Shown here piece after piece: positions 29,051 to 41,669 of a stretch of 64,000 nt of DNA. Source of the DNA: an uncultured Prochlorococcus sp. (lineage in GTDB: Bacteria > Cyanobacteriota > Cyanobacteriia > PCC-6307 > Cyanobiaceae); NCBI GenBank assembly GCA_902624785.1, contig CACNYU010000002.1:16007-80006 (forward strand). The letters are read 5' to 3'. How positions within the stretch are numbered: position 1 is the stretch's first letter; every line of letters starts with the position of its first letter. Below the pieces are notes generated by a model, which saw only the letters and a list, made by a program, of their open reading frames with translations, had not been told where the DNA came from and made no database searches. A program made the translations under genes and the position numbers.

Positions 29051-29308
29051 ATGAAACAAAAAGTTTTAAAGAATAAATATGAAGAACTCATAAAAGTTGC
29101 AGAATTAGCAACTGGTAGGAAAGAAACTATTTCTTTGTTACATAAGGCAGAGAGTATTCGTTCCAAGATTACAAAAAAAATAAGATATAATTGCAATAAG
29201 TGTAATGGATATGGTTATAGAAGAACTTCAATAGATGGAGCTAAAACATGTTTAAATTGCTTCGGGAAAGGTTATATTCTTAATAATCTTACTAAAAAAT
29301 CTGATTGA
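29051..29308 (+). CDS. small protein with CxxCxGxG…CxxCxGxG zinc-finger-like motif
   Basis: YNCNKCNGYGYRRTSIDGAKTCLNCFGKGYI. Confidence 0.65.
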   Translation: MKQKVLKNKYEELIKVAELATGRKETISLLHKAESIRSKITKKIRYNCNKCNGYGYRRTSIDGAKTCLNCFGKGYILNNLTKKSD

Positions 29309-29400
29309 GACATTTTATTAGATTTGTTGTAAAAAAAATCTAACTCTTTAATTTATTAAACTAAGTTTGTTATTTTCTATCTAATTAACAGAATTTTCAT

Positions 29401-29475
29401 AAAAAAGCACCTAGTTAAATTGTTCCTAAGCGCTTTTTATAATCAGAAATTTATGTGTGAGGAGTTTTCTGATAT
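29401..29475 (-). ncRNA. yfr1-like: Yfr1-like sRNA
   Basis: minus strand has ATCAGAAA-ACTCCTCACAC-ATAAA-TTTCTGAT (8-bp stem 466-473/442-449, 11-mer at 29455-29465 in loop) followed by terminator AAAAAGCGCTTAG…CTAGGTGCTTTTTT. Confidence 0.75.
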
Positions 29476-29590
29476 AAATAATTTACACCCTAGAGAGAAT
29501 TAAATTACACAGTATAAATTCCTATTTTTAAAAAATATTCATAATTAGTGAAGTGAATAATCATAGTTTAAAAAACTGAGAAATATAAAA

Positions 29591-29617
29591 AAAAAGAGGC
29601 AGTATTTGCCTCTTTTT
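29591..29617. terminator. bidirectional rho-independent terminator
   Basis: AAAAAGAGGCA-GTATT-TGCCTCTTTTT perfect 11-bp stem with flanking A/T tracts. Confidence 0.8.
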
Positions 29618-29790
29618 AATATTCTTTTTTATAATAGAATTTAACTAAAATAATTTGTTTTACTTATCATTTGAACAAGCCTTAGTTAATATTAAGAATA
29701 TAAAAATTAGATTAGGGGACAATTATCGTGATTAATCTCCAAATTTAACTTTTTTAAGTATGTCAATCTTATCAGATTAATTGATTGAGA

Positions 29791-29871
29791 TTAATTTAAC
29801 GAATGTCCCATTCTCGGCTTTTCTTTAAATAAGAATCTTTTTCGTAAATACTCAGGTGGGTTGCAAACCAT
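29791..29871 (-). CDS. 26-aa candidate microprotein with strong Shine-Dalgarno
   Basis: AAGGAGGAGCTAATTA-ATG; MVCNPPEYLRKRFLFKEKPRMGHSLN*. Confidence 0.45.
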   Translation of the reverse strand: MVCNPPEYLRKRFLFKEKPRMGHSLN

Positions 29872-30062
29872 TAATTAGCTCCTCCTTACTTACTAAAAAT
29901 ATTCTCTTCTGAAAATTCAACAAAGTAAATCGGTGTTTATACTGATTTATATCTTAAATATAATACTAATAGTTTTTTAATTAATTTTGCAAATTTAAAA
30001 GTTTTATTTATTCAACAAATTTTCAAAAAGTTATTAAAAGTTGTAGTATAAATAAAAACAAT

Positions 30063-30287
30063 ATGCAAATAATAGGTCTGATACTTCTAATTGCCACCAG
30101 TTGGTACATCTTCAAGTTAACCTCTAATTTCTTAGACGATCAAACAAAAAAGGAGTTAGATGAAAATTTTGAGTTATTTAAAAAACAATTTAACGATTTA
30201 AAAAATAGATTTTCTAAAGATAACATAAAATTAATTTGGGAAAAATATAAAGAAGAGAGAAAAACTATTACAACTAAAGATGATTAA
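30063..30287 (+). CDS. hypothetical membrane-anchored protein
   Basis: N-terminal TM then charged helix. Confidence 0.5.
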   Translation: MQIIGLILLIATSWYIFKLTSNFLDDQTKKELDENFELFKKQFNDLKNRFSKDNIKLIWEKYKEERKTITTKDD

Positions 30288-40237: not shown

Positions 40238-40430
40238 AAAAAAAGACTCTAAGGCTGTTATGTCAACAGTCTTTGAGTCTAATACCGCCTTACCGTTAAT
40301 CTTCTGTTGCATCGACCTGGAAAAGCCAGAAGAGGAGACAAAGTGAGCATCCATTTCCAACTACTGGGATGGTCTACTTCAACATCACGACAGTCTCCAC
40401 AAGTCGATTAAGAGTCAGATCAGAGCACAG
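40238..40430 (-). ncRNA. ssrS: probable 6S RNA
   Basis: GC-richer rod-like RNA (GGAGAC…GTGA…CATCC/GGATG…TCAC…GTCTCC), terminator GACTCaaAGaCTGTTgacatAACAGcCTtaGAGTC-TTTTTTT, promoter-like TAAATT about 8 nt upstream, directly downstream of purK. Confidence 0.75.
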
Positions 40431-40460
40431 TAAAAGAATTTAACCAATAAGGCAGTTAAA

Positions 40461-41669
40461 TTATATTAACCTATTTTTTGAATCATAAGGTGATGGCCAA
40501 ATATCATTAACTTCTTTTTTTAATGAATCAGCCTTTTCACTCCTCTTCTTATGATTATTTTCATCAAGTAAAAAAGTAATATGACCCATTTTTCTGCCAA
40601 AATTTTCTTTAGACTTACCATACCAATGAATATTTGCGCCATTTATATTAGATAGCTTTTCAATTCTATCTTCAATTTTTAAAGAATAATTCTTTTTAAG
40701 TCCAAGCAAATTGATCATCAAGGCCCCTTCGCTATTCATATTTATATCAGGTGGCTTGATACCTGAAGAAATACAAATTTGTTGATCAAACTGGCTTGAA
40801 TTACATGCTTCAATCGAAAAATGTCCAGAATTATGAGTTCTTGGAGCTATCTCATTAATTAATAGACCACATTTACCAAAAAAGAATTCTATTCCTAAAA
40901 CACCCACATAATTTAAATCATTAACAATCGATGAAAAAATATTATATGCAAAAATATCAACTTCATAAGACGTTTGTGCTGGAGATAATACCCAATGGCA
41001 TATATTATTTAATTGAAAAGTTTCAACTATTGGAAATACTCTTATAACACCATCATTATCTCTAGATCCAATCAAAGCAATTTCCTTCTCATAATCAATC
41101 CACTCTTCAATTATCCATTCTTCAGACATATTCATATTTAGAAAATTGTCTAATTCTTCCTTGCTAGAGATTTTCTTATTCCCTTTACCGTCGTAACCTC
41201 CCTTAAAGGATTTTGCCATTATTGGAAATTTCCATGTTTTTAAATCTTCTTCAGCAAGATTTTCAAAATCTTTTATAGGAAGCCACTTAGGTGATGGCAA
41301 ATTCAATTTATCTATGAATCTTTTTTGAGAAATTCTGTCCACTAATGGATATAATGAATCTAAATTTGGAATAAAGAAAACTTCAGACCCAATTTGTTTT
41401 AATTTTTCAATTTTTACCCATTCATTCTCAAAAATAACTTTTTCACAGTTTTTTAAAAGACTCTTATTTCCTCTAATTTGTAATGGATCAGCATGAATAA
41501 CTTTATCCGCTTTTAATGCCGCTGGATCATCAGATGATTTTGTTTGAATACAAACTTTTATATTTCTCTCCTTTGCCGCTTCTACAAGCATTAAAGCTAA
41601 TTGTCCTCCTCCAATAATGCCTATTGGATAGGGTTTAGAATCCTTATTAATATTTCCTGAAGTAAACAT
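40461..41669 (-). CDS. purK: 5-(carboxyamino)imidazole ribonucleotide synthase
   Basis: IGIIGGGQLALMLVEAA, GYDGKGN, NEIAPRTHNSGHFSIEAC. Confidence 0.96.
   Translation of the reverse strand: MFTSGNINKDSKPYPIGIIGGGQLALMLVEAAKERNIKVCIQTKSSDDPAALKADKVIHADPLQIRGNKSLLKNCEKVIFENEWVKIEKLKQIGSEVFFIPNLDSLYPLVDRISQKRFIDKLNLPSPKWLPIKDFENLAEEDLKTWKFPIMAKSFKGGYDGKGNKKISSKEELDNFLNMNMSEEWIIEEWIDYEKEIALIGSRDNDGVIRVFPIVETFQLNNICHWVLSPAQTSYEVDIFAYNIFSSIVNDLNYVGVLGIEFFFGKCGLLINEIAPRTHNSGHFSIEACNSSQFDQQICISSGIKPPDINMNSEGALMINLLGLKKNYSLKIEDRIEKLSNINGANIHWYGKSKENFGRKMGHITFLLDENNHKKRSEKADSLKKEVNDIWPSPYDSKNRLI

Follow-up and report, generated by a model that had tools for sequence, protein, structure and literature searches.

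The feature described here lies on the minus strand of a 64-kb stretch of DNA (the window), which belongs to a Prochlorococcus genome assembled into 63 contigs (1.12 Mb; completeness 56%). Its parts are collected in Table 1. Read from 29473 to 29442, the minus strand gives ATCAGAAA-ACTCCTCACACATAAA-TTTCTGAT, followed by the hairpin of a terminator, which extends to 29402, and by a run of T. The original prediction had placed the exact 11-mer ACTCCTCACAC on this strand, in a 16-nt loop closed by an 8-bp stem and followed by a terminator, with a -10 TAAATT just upstream. We recovered every element: the 11-mer at 29465-29455, the hairpin and terminator in the coordinates as well as in the fold, and TAAATT at 29485-29480, extended by a TG before it and located 6 nt upstream of the 5' end of the stem. 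The 77-nt fold reached -20.2 kcal/mol (z = -5.5), and none of 200 shuffles was equally stable. It is nearly certain that this is a genuine sRNA gene.

Table 1. Features of the solitary Yfr10-type locus and of the adjoining RNA block (window positions)
Feature	Position	Strand	Details and basis
Yfr10-type sRNA	29401..29473	(-)	predicted mature RNA ~73-75 nt; Rfam RF02362, fold
5' hairpin	29442..29473	(-)	8-bp stem ATCAGAAA/TTTCTGAT (29473-29466 with 29449-29442), 16-nt loop
Yfr1/Yfr10 motif ACTCCTCACAC in loop	29455..29465	(-)	exact 11-mer; invariant in 6/6 orthologues
Intrinsic terminator hairpin and T run	29402..29438	(-)	fold; both-sided pair changes across orthologues
Extended -10 TGTAAATT	29480..29487	(-)	TGTA(G/A/T)ATT in 6/6 orthologues
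Yfr10 box TAGGAATTTATACTGTGT, candidate regulator site	29507..29524	(-)	best window site for Yfr10-type profile
Yfr8/Yfr9-like RNA block	29556..30039	(-)	directly upstream of, and separate from, the Yfr10 sRNA; blastn to MED4
26-aa ORF MVCNPPEYLRKRFLFKEKPRMGHSLN after AAGGAGGAG	29871-29791	(-)	conserved, ~22-26 aa in relatives
Terminator in Yfr8/9-like block	29617-29591	(-)	

The only Rfam match at the locus was Yfr10 (RF02362), at 29391-29473 and over the full model length. Its score of 50.5 bits is near the gathering cut-off of 43 bits and below that of the two Yfr2-linked copies in the same genome (73.4 and 61.2 bits). The covariance-model check proposed for Yfr1 went the other way: RF01116 had no match in 29300-29600, up to E = 1. 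In Yfr1 the motif occupies an unpaired stretch between two stem-loops, and in Yfr10 it lies in the loop atop a stem (Lambrecht et al. 2019, PMC6778093). In the window RNA it is the loop of the first stem that holds the motif, not a stretch between two stem-loops; with ACUCCUCACAC in that stem-top loop, an intrinsic terminator at the 3' end and a length of ~78 nt, the RNA has the Yfr10 layout. The loop-on-stem placement first noticed in this sequence is therefore the published trait of Yfr10, and Yfr10 and Yfr18 of strain MED4 carry the identical 11-mer (Steglich et al. 2008, PMC2518516). Thus, the feature is a member of the Yfr10 family, already known from Prochlorococcus.

The 11-mer occurs four times in the genome and its reversed control not once, so its presence is not due to chance. 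Besides the window copy, these are one canonical Yfr1 on contig C14 (54.1 bits), between the IMP dehydrogenase and thioredoxin genes (the guaB-trxA locus), and two Yfr10 genes on contig C12. Each of the C12 genes precedes a Yfr2-family RNA (RF01701) by ~155 nt. This arrangement is typical of high-light strains but not required of a Yfr10, whose synteny is called poor in PMC6778093. At the genus level, 168 of 200 genomes had a Yfr10 match, and in one of them the match at 346661-346738 reproduced the published MED4 coordinates exactly. We also observed a further solitary Yfr10-like hairpin at C1:57925-57933, with the variant motif TCTCCTCACACA, an 11-bp stem, no clear terminator and a score of 36.2 bits (under the RF02362 cut-off); a glutamine-II riboswitch (RF01704, 71 bits) is ~100 nt from it on the other strand.

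The window copy has no Yfr2 partner: GTGTGTAGGAG was absent within one mismatch from the whole 64 kb, and RF01701 had no match there. An exact 30-mer of its hairpin was found in 6 of 267 genus genomes (HNLC1, HNLC2, AH-321-P05, AH-321-J17, AG-418-C09 and the window's own), a count that could miss diverged orthologues because the pattern was exact. In all of them the RNA sits between the orthologues of a CXXCXGXG protein (29051-29308) and a 74-aa protein (30063-30287). The same pair of neighbours is also found side by side in further high-light genomes, among them MED4, with a gap of ~285 nt, and at the matching place no Yfr10-like motif was present within one mismatch in ~28 loci with the neighbour gene. 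Since the neighbours are kept without the RNA elsewhere, the RNA was either gained in a restricted lineage or lost from other genomes, while the place itself is conserved. Neither Yfr18 nor Yfr10 of MED4 is syntenic with it, both being located elsewhere, beside Yfr2-family RNAs. This locus is without an earlier description as a Yfr10 site in the part of the literature accessible to us.

The context is unusual too, with a solitary copy beside a block that resembles the Yfr8/9 region. Block 29556-30039 matched the sense-antisense Yfr8/9 ncRNA region of MED4 one-to-one in blastn (59% identity, E 3e-15); RF02360 matched it weakly, at 28.7 bits against a cut-off of 40, and it is kept in the same genomes as the solitary Yfr10. 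A 16-mer within its small ORF was present in solitary-Yfr10 genomes but absent from the six other genomes checked. Yfr8/9 were proposed as a possible toxin-antitoxin pair (PMC2518516). By eye, HNLC2 and AH-321-J17 have an ORF of ~50 aa on the opposite strand between the block and Yfr10, which seems common to HNLC2-type genomes and MED4 and missing in the window. Elsewhere in the window, a 6S RNA (RF00013, 80.2 bits) is encoded at 40278-40461, minus strand.

Lack of conservation of stem and motif in relatives had been set beforehand as grounds for refutation; both are conserved, at the same locus in six genomes. In the 5' hairpin, 100% of the cells are paired and 7 of the 8 pairs are invariant; the motif itself does not vary and the hairpin and loop hardly do, so they give little covariation evidence. 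In the terminator, three pairs changed on both sides, a number reached by 2 of 500 shuffles in a test on a small set (six sequences) that ignores relatedness, and pairing dropped from 96.5% in register to ~50% when the partners were slid.

Upstream of the Yfr10-type genes, the block TAGTAATTWATACTGTAG recurs at all loci while the flanking DNA differs. Allowing 5 mismatches of 18 (shuffled regions match at 2.6%), 48 of the 52 distinct regions upstream of Yfr10-type genes at other loci had the 18-nt box at a distance of 51 or 52 nt from the stem, and one more had it at another distance; upstream of MED4 yfr10 the box reads TAGTAATTAATACTGTAG. A profile trained only on the other Yfr10-type genes ranked 29524-29507, 52 nt before the stem, at the top of all window positions on both strands. 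The result demonstrates common ancestry and retention of the box but does not yet establish a function, since the training set includes many close relatives and a promoter may have been copied along with its gene. We saw no such box by eye in the Yfr1 promoter or in Yfr2-family promoters, and found no mention of it in the published Yfr10 descriptions within our limited literature coverage. The regulators of yfr10 are stated to be unknown in PMC6778093, and the box may be the site of one. Separately, a box-like site, TAGGTATTTATACTGT, recurs at one conserved non-Yfr10 place in 8 of the 9 genomes considered besides the window's own: MED4 (688599-688614, minus strand) and, at the corresponding position, seven further high-light genomes. 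It has no Rfam match nearby and may drive an unannotated transcript.

The original prediction offered a second copy of Yfr1 or a relocated, structurally altered variant. What stands is that the motif is an extra copy outside the guaB-trxA locus, within an additional sRNA gene; the gene itself is a Yfr10, with no match to RF01116. A relocated or altered Yfr1 would explain the exact 11-mer in common, but the genome-wide search found the canonical Yfr1 at its guaB-trxA locus, on C14. Together with the unmatched Yfr1 model, and with a hairpin sequence, terminator layout and promoter box that fit Yfr10 and not Yfr1, this makes that origin highly improbable.

Nor do we give much weight to the idea of a duplicated Yfr10 that is not expressed and has begun to decay. 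The exact match in only 6 of 267 genomes and an Rfam score below that of the Yfr2-linked copies would suit it; however, in the six genomes the hairpin, motif, -10 and box remained invariant or nearly so although identity between the neighbouring proteins is down to 50-66%, and the terminator kept its pairing through both-sided changes. A remnant is thus very unlikely. Least credible of all, to the point of being negligible, is a chance hairpin holding a chance motif: the region is A/T-rich and short hairpins are common in it, but only 0.01 copies of the 11-mer are expected in the window, and both the fold z-score and the conservation in place speak against coincidence.

Our preferred reading, in which we have high confidence, is a solitary Yfr10 gene of an HNLC1-like Prochlorococcus, with a presumably regulated promoter and a predicted RNA of ~75 nt whose loop would pair with targets and with titrating Yfr2 RNAs. 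By analogy with MED4, the promoter would produce a terminator-ended transcript of ~75 nt, at a level that changes with light or darkness as is characteristic of Yfr10, and the 5' hairpin would present the CU-rich loop ACUCCUCACAC to G-rich complementary stretches in target mRNAs, with ppa, atpA/atpC and csoS1/csoS2 as candidates from the work on MED4. A second predicted partner of the loop is the GUGUGUAGGAG sequence at the 5' end of Yfr2-family RNAs; these RNAs would titrate or compete for Yfr10, as described for MED4 in PMC6778093. The three Yfr2-family RNAs found in the genome carry the complementary 5' motif. Computed duplexes between them and the window RNA, at -16 to -22 kcal/mol, were not more favourable than those with shuffled sequences, and the calculation therefore speaks neither for nor against the pairing. 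Beyond the four sRNA genes, a genome search for the exact complement TGTGAGGAG returned only one Yfr10-like hairpin and one uncharacterised site.

Carbon and energy genes of a very abundant phototroph come under the titration network of Yfr1, Yfr10 and Yfr2. Two aspects of the present locus deserve follow-up, namely the box in common with other Yfr10-type genes and the separation from Yfr2. The box, at a fixed distance across unlinked yfr10-type loci, is a concrete sequence for finding the regulator, and the solitary copy provides natural strains with Yfr10 unlinked from Yfr2. More speculatively, we propose as a possibility rather than an expectation that HNLC-type lineages conserve a solitary Yfr10, uncoupled from Yfr2, under the same box as the Yfr2-linked copies; a single regulator bound to it would control every yfr10-type gene according to light and darkness, and this copy would raise Yfr10 without its antagonist Yfr2.

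Compared with known systems, the window RNA is closest to Yfr10 (RF02362), Yfr18 and Yfr12 of MED4, with which it shares the 11-mer, letter for letter, within a loop closed by an 8-bp ATCAGAAA stem, a 3' terminator hairpin, a length near 78 nt and the upstream box at 51-52 nt. It differs from these in having no adjoining Yfr2-family gene, one extra A in the loop, CACACAU instead of CACACAC in the extension after the motif core, another terminator sequence and a locus that MED4 does not use. Yfr1 (RF01116) has the single-stranded ACUCCUCACAC motif in common, but places it between two stem-loops, at the guaB-trxA locus and without the box. Syr5, Yfr104 and the Nostoc TSS RNAs are likewise additional sRNAs with a Yfr1 motif, described in other cyanobacterial lineages (PMC6778093).
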